Positions 34,880 through 44,402 of a DNA stretch of 64,000 nt are shown here, in pieces; position 1 is the stretch's first letter; each line of letters opens with the position of its first letter. The translations under genes were made by a program, and so were the position numbers. The notes under the pieces were generated by a model. That model worked only from the letters and a program-made list of their open reading frames with translations. It ran no database searches and was not told where the DNA came from. The stretch comes from Actinoplanes lutulentus (lineage in GTDB: Bacteria > Actinomycetota > Actinomycetes > Mycobacteriales > Micromonosporaceae), in contig NZ_QLMJ01000002.1 of NCBI RefSeq assembly GCF_003259845.1, positions 372,001 through 436,000 of the forward strand, written 5' to 3'.

Positions 34880-36517
34880 TCATGAGGCCGCGGTGTAGAC
34901 CCGCTCCCCGCCGACGTAGGTGATCGCCACCGACGCGTCGCCGATCTCCTGCGGCGCGCCGGCGAACGGATCCCGGTCCAGCACCACCAGGTCGGCCCGG
35001 TTGCCGGCCCGGATCACCCCGCTGTCGTCCAGGTGGTTCACGAACGCCGACCCCGCCGTGTACGCCGTCAGCGCCGCCGCCAGATCCAGCTCCTGACCCG
35101 GCAGGAACGGCGGGTAGTCGCTGCCGTGATGCACCCGGTTCACCGCCACGTGGATCGCTTCGAGCGGATCCGGCGTGGTGACCGGCCAGTCGCTGCCGGC
35201 GGCCAGGTGCGCGCCGGCCCGCCGCAGGTCGCCGAACGGATATTGCCGGCCCACCGCGTCCGGGTCCAGGAACGGGATCGTCAGATCATCCATCTGCGGC
35301 TCGTGCGACGCCCAGTACGCCTGCAGGTTCGCGCTGGCGCCCAGCTCGCGGAACCGGGGAATGTCGTCCGGGTGCACCACCTGCAGATGGGCGAGGTGCG
35401 GCCGGGTGTCCTTCCAGCCGTTCGCCGATCGGGCCGCCGCGACCGCGTCCAGCGCGTCGCGTACCGCCCGGTCGCCGAGCGCGTGGAAGTGCGCCTGGAA
35501 ACCGAGGGCGTCCAGCTCGGTGACGTACCCAGGAAGTGCTTTGGGGGCGATGAAGGACAGGCCCTGGTTCGTGGTGGCGCAGCCGCAGCCGTCCCGGTAA
35601 GGCGAGGTCATCGCGGCCGTGAAGTTCTCCGCGACGCCGTCGAGCATCAGCTTCACGCTGTCGCAGCGCAGCCGGCCCACGGTGAACTTCTCCCGTTTCG
35701 CGACCAGCTCCGGGATCTGCGAGGCGTCCCGGTCCCGGTCCCACCAGAGCGCGCCGACCACTGTGGCGCGCAGCGAGCCGTCCCGGGCCGCCGCCAGGTA
35801 CGCGTCGGAGACGTCCGGATATCCGTTGGTGGCGCACACCATGGCGTCCTGCCAGGACGTGACGCCGAGCGAGAAGAGCAGGTCCTGGCCCCGGTACAGC
35901 CCGGCCAGCCGGTCCGCGGCGGTCAGCTCCGGCAGCAGGTCGGTGACCATCTGCATGGCGCCCTCCTGCAGCCCGCCCGACGGTGAGCCGTCCGGCGCCC
36001 GGTCGATCCGGCCGTCCGCCGGGTCCGGGGTGTCCGCGGTGATCCCGGCCAGCTCCAGGGCGCGGCTGTTCACCCAGGCGCCGTGGTGGTCGCGGTTGGA
36101 GAGGAACACCGGCCGGTCCGGCACCACGCTGTCGAGCAGCTCGCGCCCGGGAACCCCGCCGGGGAAGCTCTCCATCGCCCAGCCACCGCCGGAGATCCAC
36201 GCGAGGTCCGGGTGCTCGTCGGCGTACGCCCGGACCCGCCGGAGGTATTCGTCGACGACGACGGTGCCGCTCAGATCGCACTGGTTCAGCTCGACGCCGC
36301 CCATCACCGCGTGCACGTGCGCGTCCTGGAACCCGGGCAGCAGCAGCCCGCCGTTCAGGTCGACGATCTCGGTGCCCGGGCCGGCGAGGTCGCGGACCTC
36401 ATCGGTGCCGACGGCCTGGATCCGTCCGTCCCGCACGGCGACGGTGGTGGCGTATCCGCGGGCGGCATCGGCGGTGAAGATCCGTCCGCCGACGAAAAGC
36501 AGGTCAGCTGCGGGCAT
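34880..36517 (-). CDS. Amidohydrolase family 3 protein (YtcJ-like)
   Basis: A 545-aa metal-dependent hydrolase. The N-terminal beta sandwich 'DLLFVGGRIFTADAARGYATTVAVRDGRIQAVG' leads to the metal motif 'LLLPGFQDAHVHAVMGG'. Later sites are 'GFQAHFHALGDRAVRDALDAV' and 'LAHLQVVHPDDIPRF', and the final Asp is in 'LAAGSDWPVTTPDPLEAIHVAVNR'. The C-terminus closes the sandwich ('NRADLVVLDRDPFAGAPQEIGDASVAITYVGGERVYTA'). Substrates of this family vary (N-acyl or exo-enzyme amides) and are unknown here. It converges on the coiled-coil gene. Confidence 0.92.
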   Translation of the reverse strand: MPAADLLFVGGRIFTADAARGYATTVAVRDGRIQAVGTDEVRDLAGPGTEIVDLNGGLLLPGFQDAHVHAVMGGVELNQCDLSGTVVVDEYLRRVRAYADEHPDLAWISGGGWAMESFPGGVPGRELLDSVVPDRPVFLSNRDHHGAWVNSRALELAGITADTPDPADGRIDRAPDGSPSGGLQEGAMQMVTDLLPELTAADRLAGLYRGQDLLFSLGVTSWQDAMVCATNGYPDVSDAYLAAARDGSLRATVVGALWWDRDRDASQIPELVAKREKFTVGRLRCDSVKLMLDGVAENFTAAMTSPYRDGCGCATTNQGLSFIAPKALPGYVTELDALGFQAHFHALGDRAVRDALDAVAAARSANGWKDTRPHLAHLQVVHPDDIPRFRELGASANLQAYWASHEPQMDDLTIPFLDPDAVGRQYPFGDLRRAGAHLAAGSDWPVTTPDPLEAIHVAVNRVHHGSDYPPFLPGQELDLAAALTAYTAGSAFVNHLDDSGVIRAGNRADLVVLDRDPFAGAPQEIGDASVAITYVGGERVYTAAS

Positions 36518-38981: not shown

Positions 38982-39115
38982 GACTGACCTATCGGCATGT
39001 CACCCGCCGGAGTGAACCGGCCAGAGGTACCCGAGCGCACATGGGAGCGATTCCATAGCCGGAAAGCGCACAAAGCGTGTTGGGTGGCCCGCAGGGGCCC
39101 AACTATGGTGGGCGA

Positions 39116-40792
39116 ATGGCGTCGACCTCTGTCGATTTGGATCGTGATGACCGCGAACGCCACACCTCCGGTGGCGGCGGTCTCGGCGTCGATGCCTTCT
39201 ATCCGGGACGCTACAAGAACGACCGGTTCTGCGCCGCCCTCGAGCTCGCTGTGGTGGCCGCCCACGAGCTCGACGCGGTGCCCGACCGGATCCCGGGGCC
39301 GCGGGCGCCGGCCGAGGAGCCGGTCGAGTTCGGTCTGGGCCAGCGGATCCAGCGGGACGCCATCGTCCGGCTGCGAGCGGGTGCGACCGCCAACGCGGGG
39401 CTGCTCGCGCTGCTGGCCGAGGGCCGGTTCGCGCCACCGGGCCCGTTCTGGCAGGACAACAACACCAAGCACACCACCCCGGAAACACGGGCGCCCGCCC
39501 CGGACCGCGCCGAGGCTGTCCGGCGGGCTCTTGCCGTACCCGATCTGCTCTGTCTGATCGCGCCGCGAGGCGCCGCACGGACCTTGACCGTCGTGGAGAT
39601 CGTGCGAGCCGCCGCGGAGCGCGGTGAGCGCGTGCTGATCACCGCACCCGACTCGGCGACCGTCGACGCCGTGGTGGACAGGTTGCCGCCCGGGCCGACA
39701 GTGGTCCGCGCCGATCAGCCCGGGGGAGGTCCCGGCAGCCTCGCCGCGGCTGCGTCCGAGACCCAGCGGCGGATTCTGGCGCGCTCGCAGGCCGCCGCCG
39801 TCGCGCTCGAACCGTGGCTCGGTGAGCCGTCGCCGGCGATGGGCTGGCTGCGCCGGCTCACCACCGCGCTGGCCGAGGCCGAGCAGGAACGCCGGCGCGC
39901 CGACCAGGCCGGCGACGAGCGGGACGCGATCGCCGCGGCCGCCCGGGAACGGCTCGGTGCCTCGCTGCGTGACCACGGACGGGTCGTCGAGGTCGCCGAA
40001 CGAGCTTTCACCCTCGCCGAGGACGCGATGCGCCGGCTCGGTGTTGCGCTGAGCCGGGCGGAGAATTCCCGGTTCGGGCGGTGGCGGGCCGGGCGTCTGC
40101 GCACCCGGCTCGCTGTCGCCGCGCCCGCCGCGCTGACCGCGCGGGAAACCCTGGCGAGGGTACGCGAGGAGCACGCCGACCATCGTGACCGGCTGGACAA
40201 GGACGTCGAGCAGGATGCCGCCGTCCGGGCCGCCGCGGATCGGGCCGCCTTCGCCGACGTGGCGGCCCATCGTGCCCTCGAGTCCGCCGAACGCTCCGCG
40301 CACCGGCTGACCCGCCTGATGTCCGGCGTCGCGCCGGAGCCGGCGTGGACCGCCGACGCGGCCGGCCTCACCGATTTCGCCGGCCACTGCTCCGGGCTCG
40401 AACCGGTGCTGCGCGGCCGGGCCGGCCTGCTGCGCGAGTGGCGTCAGCGGGCCGCGCGGCCGAGCCGCCAACTGCACGCCGAGCTGCTGCGGTACGCCGA
40501 TGTGGTCGCCACCACCTGCCTCGGTGTAGGCCGCCCGGAGCACGGCGACCTGGAGTTCGACCTGGTGGTGATCGTGGACGCGGGCCGGACCGGGCTGCCG
40601 GTCGCGCTGGTGCCGCTGGTCCGGGCCCGCCGGGCGGTGCTCGCCGGCTCGGTGGGCCGGATGCCGCTCTTCGATCTCGGGGCGGCGCCGGTGCCGGACG
40701 AGGTGACCGGGCTGCTCCATCGCAGTGTGCTGGAGCGGCTTCTGGAGAAGGCGCCGGCCGCGAATCGCGTACGCCTGAGGTCCGGATCGTGA
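39116..40792 (+). CDS. Degenerate, half-length SF1 helicase-like protein
   Basis: 558 aa from ATG 39116. The layout follows domain 1A of UPF1/DNA2-type helicases. 'LCLIAPRGAARTLTVVEIVRAAAERGERVLITAPDSATVDAVVDRL' occupies the Walker A region, but the P-loop reads APRGAART, without the Lys. After an Ala/Arg/Glu-rich coiled coil (about 235-425) comes 'YADVVATTCLGVG...EFDLVVIVDAGRTGLPVALVPLVRARRAVLAGSVGRMPLF', where motif II reads DAG in place of DEA. Domain 2A (motifs IV-VI) is absent. ATP hydrolysis is therefore unlikely. The frame is clean, so this looks like a maintained protein rather than decay. The stop overlaps the next start. Confidence 0.75.
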   Translation: MASTSVDLDRDDRERHTSGGGGLGVDAFYPGRYKNDRFCAALELAVVAAHELDAVPDRIPGPRAPAEEPVEFGLGQRIQRDAIVRLRAGATANAGLLALLAEGRFAPPGPFWQDNNTKHTTPETRAPAPDRAEAVRRALAVPDLLCLIAPRGAARTLTVVEIVRAAAERGERVLITAPDSATVDAVVDRLPPGPTVVRADQPGGGPGSLAAAASETQRRILARSQAAAVALEPWLGEPSPAMGWLRRLTTALAEAEQERRRADQAGDERDAIAAAARERLGASLRDHGRVVEVAERAFTLAEDAMRRLGVALSRAENSRFGRWRAGRLRTRLAVAAPAALTARETLARVREEHADHRDRLDKDVEQDAAVRAAADRAAFADVAAHRALESAERSAHRLTRLMSGVAPEPAWTADAAGLTDFAGHCSGLEPVLRGRAGLLREWRQRAARPSRQLHAELLRYADVVATTCLGVGRPEHGDLEFDLVVIVDAGRTGLPVALVPLVRARRAVLAGSVGRMPLFDLGAAPVPDEVTGLLHRSVLERLLEKAPAANRVRLRSGS

Positions 40793-41523
40793 GCGAGCCG
40801 GCGCACCTGCCGTTGCGGGAGATCGAGCGCCGGGTGGCCGCCCTGCCCGGTGTCGAACCGCAGCGGATCGTGCCGCTGCTGCTCCCGATGTGGGCCGTCG
40901 AGGTGACCGCGACCGTCCGCGACTCGCAGCCGTACGACGTGCTGGACCGCTATCTGTCCCGGGCCGTCGCCGAGGGCGGCCTCGACCGGACCGACGAGCT
41001 CGCCGGGTTTCTCGGTGTCGAGCCGCCGCTGGTGGCCCGGGCGGTGCGTCACCTCGCCGGGATCGGCCATCTGGTACGCGACGGCGACAAGCTGAACATG
41101 ACCGAGCTGGGCCGTCGTTCCGTGGCGGACGGCCGGCGGTACCACCTGGCGGCGGGGCGGCGCCTGTCGTTCCGGTTCGACGGTTTCCAGGGTGAGCCGG
41201 TGCCGTACGCGACGGTGGTGCACTCGACGTGGCTGCCATCGCCGGAGCTGACGCTGAGTGATGGGACGGTGTTCTCGGCGGTCTCCGGGGTGCCGTTGCC
41301 GTCGGATGCGGTGTCGTTGCTGCTCGCCCGGCCGGATGCGGGGGACTTCACGGGGGCGGTGGTGCCGGTGACGGCGTCGGTTGATCGGGTCGTCGGACGA
41401 TATCTGCCGATTTATCTGGTCATCTGCGCGGAAGACCATCTGGTCTTCGGCACGGCGCTGGACGGACCGGATCCCTACCTCGCCGGGTTTATCCCTTTCC
41501 TCGGCGGGAACCTCGAAACCTGA
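40789..41523 (+). CDS. Hypothetical partner protein with possible winged-helix domain
   Basis: 244 aa from GTG 40789, overlapping the previous stop by 4 bp (GTGA), hence coupled. I do not recognise the family. Residues 1-60 are helical ('LREIERRVAALPGVEPQRIVPLLLPMWAVEVTATV'). Residues 65-115 resemble a winged helix ('GGLDRTDELAGFLGVEPPLVARAVRHLAGIGHLVRDGDKLNMTELGRRSV'). The second half is beta-rich ('GRRLSFRFDGFQGEPVPYATVVHSTWL', 'YLPIYLVICAEDHLVFGTAL'). The coupling suggests it works with the helicase-like protein, perhaps as its DNA-binding partner. Confidence 0.7.
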   Translation: MSEPAHLPLREIERRVAALPGVEPQRIVPLLLPMWAVEVTATVRDSQPYDVLDRYLSRAVAEGGLDRTDELAGFLGVEPPLVARAVRHLAGIGHLVRDGDKLNMTELGRRSVADGRRYHLAAGRRLSFRFDGFQGEPVPYATVVHSTWLPSPELTLSDGTVFSAVSGVPLPSDAVSLLLARPDAGDFTGAVVPVTASVDRVVGRYLPIYLVICAEDHLVFGTALDGPDPYLAGFIPFLGGNLET

Positions 41524-41538
41524 CATGAATCAGTGTGG

Positions 41539-41573
41539 GGACCAACACGGTCCTTGACGGACCGTCCTGGTCC
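41539..41573. promoter_or_regulatory. 35-bp dyad upstream of the TetR-MMPL pair
   Basis: Arms 41539-41553 (GGACCAACACGGTCC) and 41559-41573 are complementary at 13 of 15 positions around a TTGAC centre that resembles a -35 box. The inner part ACGGTCC / GGACCGT is exact. It is the likely autoregulatory operator of the TetR gene 22 bp downstream. Confidence 0.65.
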
Positions 41574-41594
41574 ATTCCGGTCTACGGTGGTCCT

Positions 41595-42158
41595 ATGCCC
41601 CGTCCCACCCGACAGCAGATCGACGACGAGATCCTCGACGCCGCGGCCAGCCTCTTCGCCCGCCACGGATTCAGGGAGACGTCGATCCAGCGCATCGCCG
41701 ACACGGTGGGCTACTCGAAGACCGGCCTGCTGCACCGCTTCCCCAACAAGGAAGCCCTGCAGCACGCGGTCATCGAGCGCTGCGTCAACCAGGTCCGTGA
41801 CATCGCCACCGGTGTGTCGGACCTGCCGGTGGGGCCGGAGCGGGACCGCGCCGTGATCACGGCCGTGGCCCAGCTCGCGCTCGCCCAGCCGGGTGTCGTC
41901 GCTCTGCTCCTCTCCTCCCTGGTCAGCGAACCGGAGAGCGAGATGGGGCAGGCGTTGAGGGAGATCGGCGAGGCCATCACCGCGGCCTTCGGCGAGGAGT
42001 TCCTCTGCGACCCGCCCCGGGCTCTGCGCAAGGTCGGCGCGCTCGGCGCGATCGCGGTGGCCAGTGTGGCCCTGCGTGACGTGCTCAGCCCCGACGCGAT
42101 GGCCGGCCTCGTCGAGGTCGGCTGTAACGCTCTCGGCCACCCCTCCGTCACACACTGA
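41595..42158 (+). CDS. TetR family regulator of the MMPL transporter
   Basis: 187 aa. The N-terminal helix-turn-helix is 'DDEILDAAASLFARHGFRETSIQRIADTVGYSKTGLLHRFPNKEALQHAVI', followed by a short all-helical ligand domain. It precedes the MMPL gene by 18 bp on the same strand and is preceded by a 35-bp dyad. It therefore most likely represses its own operon. Confidence 0.92.
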   Translation: MPRPTRQQIDDEILDAAASLFARHGFRETSIQRIADTVGYSKTGLLHRFPNKEALQHAVIERCVNQVRDIATGVSDLPVGPERDRAVITAVAQLALAQPGVVALLLSSLVSEPESEMGQALREIGEAITAAFGEEFLCDPPRALRKVGALGAIAVASVALRDVLSPDAMAGLVEVGCNALGHPSVTH

Positions 42159-42176: not shown

Positions 42177-44402
42177 ATGGCAACGTTGTTGCATCGCCTC
42201 GGGTTGGCGTCGGTACGCCACAGGATCATCGTCACGTTGGTGTGGCTGCTGGCCCTGGTGGCCGTCGGGGTCGGAGCGGCCACTCTCTCCGGGACCACGG
42301 CCAACACCTTCAGCATCCCCGGCCAGGAGTCGACAAAGGCCCTGGACCTGATGACCGAGAAGTACGGCGCGGCGTCGGCCGGCGCCACCGTGCAGGTGGT
42401 GTTCGAAGCCCCCGCCGGCGAGACCGTGACCGCGCCGGAGAACGCCGCGCAGATCGCCAAGGCGGTCACCGACCTCGGCACGGTGCCCGGCGTCGTCGGG
42501 GTGAGCAATCCCCTCGACAAGGCCAACCCGGCGGTGTCCCGGGACCAGACCGCGGCGTACGCCTCGATCACGTTCGGCGTGCAGCCGTCCGAGGTCACCG
42601 ATGAGCAGCGCGAATCCATCATCGCCAAGGTCGAGCAGGCCCGGTCGCTCGGCCTGACCGTCGAGGCCGACGGTGAGGCGCTGAGCAACCCGGCCGACAT
42701 CGGTGGCGCCTCGGAGATCCTCGGTGTCGTCGTCGCCCTGCTCGTGCTGGCCCTGACGTACGGCTCGCTGGTCGCCGCCGGCATGAACCTGCTGACCGCG
42801 ATCGTCGGCGTCGGCATCGGCGCGGCCGGCATCGTCACCCTGACCGGCTTCGTCGACCTCCAGTCGACCACCCCGATCCTGGCGGTGATGCTGGGCCTGG
42901 CCGTCGGCATCGACTACGCCCTGTTCATCATCACCCGGTTCCGGCACGAGTTGCGCCGCGGCCTGGCGGTCGAACCCGCCGCCGCGATGGCCGTCGGCTC
43001 CGCGGGCTCGGCGGTCGTCACGGCCGGCCTCACCGTCGTGATCGCGCTGGCCGGGCTGTCGATCGTCGGCATCCCGTTCCTCACCGAAATGGGCCTGGCC
43101 GCCGCCGCGACGATCGTGATCGCGGTGCTCGTGGCGATCACGCTGGTGCCGGCGATCCTCGGGTTCGTCGGGGTTCGTGCGCTGCCGCGCAAGCAGCGCG
43201 AGATTGCCGGCGGCTCTGCGGGGGACGAGATTCCGGTCGGGCGTGGCTTCATCGCCGGTTGGGCGCGGCTCGTCACCACGAAGCGCACCCTCAGCCTGGT
43301 CCTGGCCGTCGCGGTCCTCGCCATCATCGCGATCCCGTTCTTCTCGATGCAGACCACGCTGAACCAGCGCGCCGCCGAGGGCAGCACCCAGGCCAAGGCT
43401 CAGGCGATCATGGACAGCCGCTTCGGCCCCGGCGTGAGCAGCCCGCTGCTGGTTCTGGTCGACGGACCCAACGCGGTCGGTTACGCGGCCACCGTGCAGA
43501 AGCAGGTCGCCGCTCTGCCGGACGTCGCTCTCGCCACCCCGGCCCAGCCCAGCCAGGACCAGTCGGCCGCCCTCATCACGATCATCCCGGGCTCCGGCCC
43601 CGAGGATCAGAAGACGATCGACCTGGTCAACGCCATCCGTGACACGGTCCCGGACGCCGACGGCGCCGAGGTCTACGTCACCGGCAACACCGCGGTCAGC
43701 ATCGACGTCTCGCAGAAGCTGAACGACGCGCTCCCGGTGTACCTCGCGCTCGTCGTCGGCCTCGCGTTCGTCCTGCTGGTGCTGGTCTTCCGGTCGATTC
43801 TGGTGCCGGTCGTCGGCGTACTCGGCTTCCTGCTCACCATCGGCGCCGCGTTCGGCGCCACGGTCGCGGTCTTCCAGTGGGGCTGGGCCGCTTCTCTGGT
43901 GAACGCGGGCTCCACCGGTCCGATCCTGAGCCTCGCGCCGATCATCATCGTCGGCATCCTGTTCGGCCTCGCGATGGACTACCAGGTCTTCCTGGTCGCC
44001 CGCATGCACGAGGCGCACGCCCACGGCGCCTCACCCCGCGACGCCATCGTCACCGGCTTCCGCCAGGCCGCCCCGGTCGTGGTAGCCGCCGCCACCATCA
44101 TGTTCGCGGTCTTCGCCGCCTTCGTCCCCGAGGGCAACGACACGATCAAGCCGATCGCGTTCGCGCTGGCGGTGGGCATCGCGTTCGACGCGTTCATCGT
44201 GCGGATGGTCCTGGTCCCGGCGGCGCTCGCGCTGCTCGGCCGTTCCGCGTGGTGGCTGCCGGCGTGGCTGCGCTGGCTGCCGGAACTCGACGTGGAGGGC
44301 GCCGCTCTGGAGCGCAAGGCCCCAGCCCCGGCTGCTTCCCCGGCATCGACTCCGGCCTCGGCCTCGGCTCCGGCCCCGATCGACGAACCCAGCTCCGTCT
44401 GA
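42177..44402 (+). CDS. MMPL/RND family transporter
   Basis: 741 aa with the 12-helix RND layout: helix 1, a large extracytoplasmic domain, helices 2-6, then the repeat. The family motif 'PILAVMLGLAVGIDYALFIITRFRHELRRGL' marks helix 4 and 'LAPIIIVGILFGLAMDYQVFLVARMHEAHAHGASPRDAIV' its counterpart in the second half. The Asp-Tyr pairs there carry the proton relay. The C-terminus is an Ala/Pro/Ser tail. Family substrates are lipids, siderophores or drugs. A strong terminator follows. Confidence 0.95.
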   Translation: MATLLHRLGLASVRHRIIVTLVWLLALVAVGVGAATLSGTTANTFSIPGQESTKALDLMTEKYGAASAGATVQVVFEAPAGETVTAPENAAQIAKAVTDLGTVPGVVGVSNPLDKANPAVSRDQTAAYASITFGVQPSEVTDEQRESIIAKVEQARSLGLTVEADGEALSNPADIGGASEILGVVVALLVLALTYGSLVAAGMNLLTAIVGVGIGAAGIVTLTGFVDLQSTTPILAVMLGLAVGIDYALFIITRFRHELRRGLAVEPAAAMAVGSAGSAVVTAGLTVVIALAGLSIVGIPFLTEMGLAAAATIVIAVLVAITLVPAILGFVGVRALPRKQREIAGGSAGDEIPVGRGFIAGWARLVTTKRTLSLVLAVAVLAIIAIPFFSMQTTLNQRAAEGSTQAKAQAIMDSRFGPGVSSPLLVLVDGPNAVGYAATVQKQVAALPDVALATPAQPSQDQSAALITIIPGSGPEDQKTIDLVNAIRDTVPDADGAEVYVTGNTAVSIDVSQKLNDALPVYLALVVGLAFVLLVLVFRSILVPVVGVLGFLLTIGAAFGATVAVFQWGWAASLVNAGSTGPILSLAPIIIVGILFGLAMDYQVFLVARMHEAHAHGASPRDAIVTGFRQAAPVVVAAATIMFAVFAAFVPEGNDTIKPIAFALAVGIAFDAFIVRMVLVPAALALLGRSAWWLPAWLRWLPELDVEGAALERKAPAPAASPASTPASASAPAPIDEPSSV

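Follow-up and report, generated by a model that had tools for sequence, protein, structure and literature searches.

A predicted dead half-helicase and its putative winged-helix partner, related to Mokosh defence genes, are kept together at a fixed chromosomal site in Actinoplanes

RESULTS

Two overlapping genes encode a truncated helicase and a putative winged-helix protein

The window analysed here, a stretch of 64,000 nucleotides from Actinoplanes lutulentus (contig NZ_QLMJ01000002.1, positions 372,001 to 436,000), contains a pair of genes, hereafter gene 1 and gene 2, that are read in the same direction and overlap by 4 bp (Table 1). The original prediction, made from the sequence letters, described an SF1 helicase outline with a ruined ATPase centre followed by a possible winged-helix protein, and the coordinates, the clean frame and the overlap that it gave proved right.

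Table 1. Features of the locus and of related operons. Positions are those of the window, except in the last row, where they are given within the named loci.
Feature	Position	Strand	Basis or remark
Amidohydrolase-like gene, left marker of the site	34880..36517	-	Family name by inspection only
Possible -35 element TTGGGT, 18 bp before the -10 element	39080..39085	+	Sequence; putative promoter assignment
Possible -10 element TATGGT, ending 7 nt before the ATG	39104..39109	+	Conservation; putative promoter role
Gene 1, truncated MkoA-like SF1 pseudohelicase, 558 aa	39116..40792	+	ORF, Pfam, PADLOC, alignment
Helix, residues 33-52 of gene 1	39212..39271	+	Followed by the beta-barrel in full-length relatives, which is gone here
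Degenerate P-loop APRGAART, residues 149-156	39560..39583	+	Walker Lys replaced by Arg; alignment
Helical stalk / coiled-coil insertion, residues 240-424	39833..40387	+	Model pLDDT about 90-96
Second half of domain 1A, residues 425-512	40388..40651	+	Highest conservation among large segments in the dead copies
Degenerate motif II VDAG, residues 487-490	40574..40585	+	DEAG in active relatives
Gene 2, shortened MkoB-like protein, 244 aa, GTG start	40789..41523	+	4-bp overlap (GTGA) with gene 1
Winged-helix domain of gene 2, residues 46-120	40924..41148	+	Predicted model, structure match
TetR-type regulator, right marker of the site	41595..42158	+	Family name by inspection only
MMPL-type transporter beside the TetR gene, same site	42177..44402	+	Family name by inspection only
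Three-gene Mokosh-like operons, Micromonosporaceae	L029:5869-11542, L030:846-6372, L031:4477-10171, L083, L084, L088, L092-L094		

The RecA-like domain 1A of Upf1-like SF1 helicases, whose outline had been proposed from the letters, is recognisable in gene 1 in several ways. Pfam AAA_11 matches residues 132-511 (E=7e-17), the nearest solved structures by sequence are SMUBP-2/IGHMBP2 (1e-8), DNA2 (2e-7) and UPF1 (2e-6), and VIA-align places the modelled domain closest to Dna2 (Z 11.1 over 149 residues at 3.4 A), with Upf1 and IGHMBP2 also matched. In the predicted model only the stalk (residues 240-424) reaches high confidence, parts of domain 1A being of moderate confidence, and Foldseek returned chiefly coiled-coil matches because the stalk alone is well predicted. 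Both ATPase motifs are altered. In the alignment the Walker A lysine corresponds to an arginine, as the reading of the P-loop had suggested, and motif II reads VVIVDAGR (residues 484-491) as against VIDEAGQ in active relatives; the aligned D is replaced by V and the E by D, which makes the earlier description of DAG in place of DEA right in substance. Domain 2A, which carries motifs IV-VI, is missing, again as claimed: AAA_12 has no Pfam match in gene 1, and 45 residues follow motif III, compared with 248-278 in active relatives. The beta-barrel is gone as well, the spacing between its landmarks being 39 residues in gene 1 as opposed to 109 in 17 of 18 active proteins and 103 in one. To judge from these motifs, gene 1 is a catalytically dead half-helicase. 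No local paralogue of gene 1 or gene 2 was found in their own genome.

No Pfam family matches gene 2 above threshold, and the suggestion that it might hold a winged helix is supported by its AlphaFold model. In this model, which was built with 4 sequences and is of moderate quality (mean pLDDT 65), residues 46-120 adopt a winged helix-turn-helix fold resembling those of MarR/CggR/DtxR type (Z about 11), set between long beta hairpins; the winged helix was all that Foldseek and VIA-align recognised, with no match for the hairpins.

The losses are fixed among relatives with open frames

Among 60 sampled Actinoplanes genomes, 23 match gene 1 and 16 of these, the window's included, carry the dead pair; together with 2 from a sample of the family they make up the dead set of 18. 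Alignment of the dead copies with 18 active relatives showed that the loss of both catalytic residues is fixed. The Walker lysine, present in 18/18 active proteins, is replaced in every dead copy (R in 17, H in 1), and so is the motif II glutamate (D in 15, G in 2, H in 1; E in 18/18 active relatives). Motif III, retained in active relatives, is also lost. No dead copy has domain 2A, with 6-66 residues remaining after motif III, or the beta-barrel, with 15-71 residues between the two conserved helices that flank it in the active proteins. Gene 2 lies directly downstream of gene 1 in every dead locus and is shorter by about 140 C-terminal residues, at 237-258 aa in dead pairs versus about 382-392 in those full-length pairs that were looked at first. 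Gene 1 measures 495-639 aa in all full-size dead copies, and around motif II (residues 425-512) it shows 81% mean identity across the dead clade, the stalk being poorly conserved (58-62%). Two genomes have a mini gene 1 of 239 and 245 aa (the open frame measures 248 aa in L034 and 242 aa in L044) from which the stalk is also missing and which gene 2 still follows; this mini version marks the minimal retained core.

The frame of gene 1 is unbroken in 18/18 copies and that of gene 2 in 17/18, the remaining one (L044) being interrupted by an assembly gap. Since 18 Actinoplanes genomes share the losses, the intact frames, the site and a promoter-like box, a recent truncation or pseudogene is ruled out; the close homologues are equally dead and truncated and gene 2 always accompanies gene 1, so that neither of the two circumstances named as refuting the original prediction applies, and the observation is confirmed and is more general than first noted. 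Gene 2 was matched in 37 of 300 Micromonosporaceae genomes, from 11 of 44 genera, and in a survey of the phylum in 3 of 396 genomes, the window's own among them.

Both genes are under purifying selection

The claim that the pair looks selected rather than decaying held up when codon changes were compared among relatives, with third-position changes 2-3 times as frequent as those at position 1 or 2 in most orthologue pairs. NG86 values, used for comparing the pair with its neighbours, put dN/dS at 0.24-0.45 in gene 1, with 0.65 between two very close orthologues, and at 0.22-0.49 in gene 2; the adjoining amidohydrolase and MMPL genes lie at about 0.07-0.27. Both genes are therefore constrained by purifying selection, more weakly than the neighbours, and an artefact of frame assignment is rejected because selection is seen on the frame in relatives. 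In a rough null, random substitution was set at half of what separates gene 1 of the window from its nearest relative; about 2 in-frame stops per lineage would then be expected, with a probability of 0.14 for none, as against the open frames described above. Upstream of gene 1, a box of the form TA[T/A/G]GGT stands 7 nt 5' of the ATG and is conserved in 18/18 relatives, which is consistent with a leaderless promoter and mRNA as its natural reading.

The pair occupies one chromosomal site

A survey of synteny placed all the dead pairs at the same site, with an amidohydrolase-like gene, divergently oriented, to the left and a TetR-MMPL gene pair to the right. TetR-MMPL adjoins 18/18 dead loci and the amidohydrolase 17/18; in the exception (L044), where the pair is close to the end of its contig, the amidohydrolase was located on a different one, probably through an assembly break. 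Neither neighbour was found at the active, full-length loci. GGACC/GGTCC palindromic repeats that resemble a TetR-type operator are present in the stretch from gene 2 to the TetR gene (41524-41594).

In six genomes that do not carry the pair, the amidohydrolase and TetR-MMPL lie near each other, with the amidohydrolase inverted in one and another neighbour gene in between in some. In a tree of three neighbour genes, one clade keeps the pair in 15/15 genomes and its sister clade in 2/9; a third carrier, L044, has no place in this tree. Because several syntenic sites in the sister clade are empty and two genomes carry the mini version, the pair is dispensable there. The dead copies form one clade with 100% support in the trees of both gene 1 and gene 2, next to full-length pairs from the same genus and family, and the order of branching inside it mostly agrees with that of the neighbour-gene tree. 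These patterns are explained most simply by a single inactivation that became fixed at one site, after which one clade kept the pair and the other shortened or lost it.

Full-length relatives are three-gene Mokosh-like operons

Searches with PADLOC models matched gene 1 to MkoA (2e-18) and gene 2 to the N-terminal part of MkoB (3e-11, profile positions 6-126 of 610). For full-length relatives the corresponding values are about 1e-105 to 1e-109 with MkoA and about 1e-11 to 1e-12 with MkoB. These matches, and the full-length operons found in Micromonosporaceae (Table 1), speak against the remark in the original prediction, which knew of no described system containing such a pair. In the full-length Micromonosporaceae relatives examined, an upstream gene ends at or just before the helicase gene. 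It encodes a kinase-like domain, for which the kinase part of MkoA is a further match, fused to varying N-termini. These are Cap4-nuclease-like in L029, L032 and L088, DUF4145/type I REase-like in L030 and L031, LmuA/Avs2/Mrr-like in L083 and, by eye, apparently membrane-spanning in L092-L094. The full-length operon thus looks like a modular three-gene Mokosh-like defence system with exchangeable effectors; no PLD nuclease is recognisable in these operons, and they may represent an undescribed relative of Mokosh. Measured against them, the lineage of the window has lost the effector gene, the N-terminal region of the helicase, the beta-barrel, domain 2A, catalysis and the C-terminus of gene 2.

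Actinoplanes also has other MkoA-like proteins, in which a kinase domain (L046:3734-7123) or a degenerate kinase-like N-terminus (L045:4008-6437) is fused directly to the helicase; no member of the gene 2 family was found in the 12 kb around either.

Another genus of the family provided a different kind of relative (L091:4889-7561, - strand), a full-length MkoA-like helicase with an 891-aa frame, an INTERMEDIATE. Its P-loop is damaged (GKI), its motif II is VDAGR, as in the dead clade, its motifs III, V and VI are degenerate and its beta-barrel is missing; its gene 2 has 311 aa, and the gene upstream of the helicase is unrelated, with no effector. The tree sets L091 apart from the dead clade, with an AU p of 0.29 for a common origin. 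It cannot be called an independent inactivation because a single origin with the dead clade is not rejected, and it is either an intermediate or a second inactivation.

DISCUSSION

The comparisons above demonstrate the ancestry of the pair, its losses, the co-conservation of its two genes, its fixed locus and the purifying selection acting on it. The retention of so stripped a pair, intact and at a single fixed site, suggests that a defence machine has been turned into a non-enzymatic scaffold or regulator. We give a probability of about 0.5 to a reading in which a three-gene Mokosh-like operon was domesticated into an effector-less pseudohelicase scaffold that holds a nucleic-acid-binding partner. 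In an ancestor of one Actinoplanes clade the effector gene disappeared, the helicase was deprived of its ATPase centre, beta-barrel and domain 2A, and gene 2 of its C-terminus, with the remaining two genes translationally coupled. The dead domain 1A and its stalk would then form a scaffold that needs no ATP and to which the gene 2 protein binds. The complex would be seated on nucleic acid by way of the winged helix, perhaps with domain 1A in contact too, again without ATP. Such a complex would act as a regulator or an architectural factor, not as a cutting defence. More tentatively, we suggest that the defence system was exapted outright, its effector-less, ATP-independent complex of pseudohelicase and winged-helix protein having taken up a housekeeping regulatory or architectural role for which barrel, domain 2A and effector are dispensable and the mini version is the minimal core. 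This would be akin to the history of nuclease-dead TnpB proteins, which became regulators.

Slow decay would account for the same locus as a dying defence operon that is being lost piecewise, the residual constraint coming from, say, the need to keep misfolded protein from being toxic or from a slight remaining activity. We regard this as rather unlikely, though it stays a live rival because of the several losses and the mini version of about 240 residues in the sister clade. The weaker constraint on the pair than on its neighbours, the empty sites alongside a version without stalk, and the existence in another genus of the full-length but motif-dead L091 without an effector all agree with decay, but the genomes of the other clade, 15 of 15, keep both genes open and coupled behind the promoter-like box, substitutions are concentrated at third positions, and the lengths of gene 2 and of gene 1 are stable in all full-size dead copies.

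It is improbable that the pair still serves defence, whether by sensing phage nucleic acid on behalf of an effector supplied in trans or by blocking phage through binding only. Its relatives match a defence system and strain G021 has a dead and an active copy together, but most dead-pair genomes in the sample are without an active family copy, the site is fixed in the chromosome and not mobile, and a search of the window's genome for homologues of one effector type found kinase-region matches only and no effector-type homologue. Least probable of all is a local role in which gene 2 controls transcription of the adjacent amidohydrolase or TetR-MMPL genes as a winged-helix factor and gene 1 supplies its ligand or partner domain. 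This would fit the MarR/DtxR type of the winged helix and the strict synteny in 18/18 but sits badly with neighbours that are unchanged at empty sites and with active ancestors that stand in unrelated surroundings.

If the pair is functional, the core formed by a Mokosh-like helicase and its winged-helix partner would be useful without ATP, an effector or a second motor domain, recognition would be separated from action in this defence family, and a small complex would be available for finding what the MkoA-MkoB core binds. The active three-gene operon, L091, the half-helicase, the mini version and the empty site form a graded series that amounts to a natural deletion series with which this core could be mapped. 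The Mokosh family is listed in a recent review among largely uncharacterised defence systems (PMC12926258).

Mokosh type I consists of a helicase, a serine/threonine kinase (STK) and a PLD nuclease (PMC11672841). Like it, the window pair has a gene for an Upf1-like SF1 helicase and, after it, one that matches MkoB in the N-terminal winged-helix region; this MkoB-type partner adjoins the helicase gene, which it overlaps. Gene 1 is homologous to the MkoA-type COG1112/Upf1-like helicase but does not have its intact motifs: the ATPase is predicted to be dead and domain 2A is absent. Unlike Mokosh type I, neither window protein has a serine/threonine kinase domain by Pfam, and no gene 2 of the set shows signs of a PLD-family nuclease, whether as a Pfam match or as an HxKxxxxD motif; moreover, gene 2 is shortened and the chromosomal site is fixed. 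Because these defining features are absent, membership of canonical Mokosh is ruled out. A literature search, made mostly outside subscription papers, found no paper describing a dead Mokosh variant. The full-length Micromonosporaceae relatives (L029-L032, L079-L094) are the direct relatives of the pair by both trees and have the same two gene families in the same order, mostly overlapping or adjacent; they differ from the window in keeping Walker A, motif II, motif III and domain 2A, in a gene 2 of about 385 aa and in the upstream gene that joins an effector to the kinase-like domain.

Outside this family, inactive helicase folds have been put to other uses. In RecC, an inactive SF1 helicase fold is used for recognition and regulation. 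The helicase-like domain of AddB is likewise an SF1-type fold that serves recognition and regulation and not ATP hydrolysis (PMC4824097). RecC and AddB keep the whole fold and work in complexes with active helicases (RecBCD and AddAB), whereas the window pair retains domain 1A and the stalk only and has no active partner encoded at its locus. PriA of Deinococcus radiodurans is a pseudohelicase without ATPase or unwinding activity that has kept DNA binding and a protein partner (PMC4504706); in contrast to gene 1, it is an SF2 protein of replication restart that is neither halved nor derived from a defence system.
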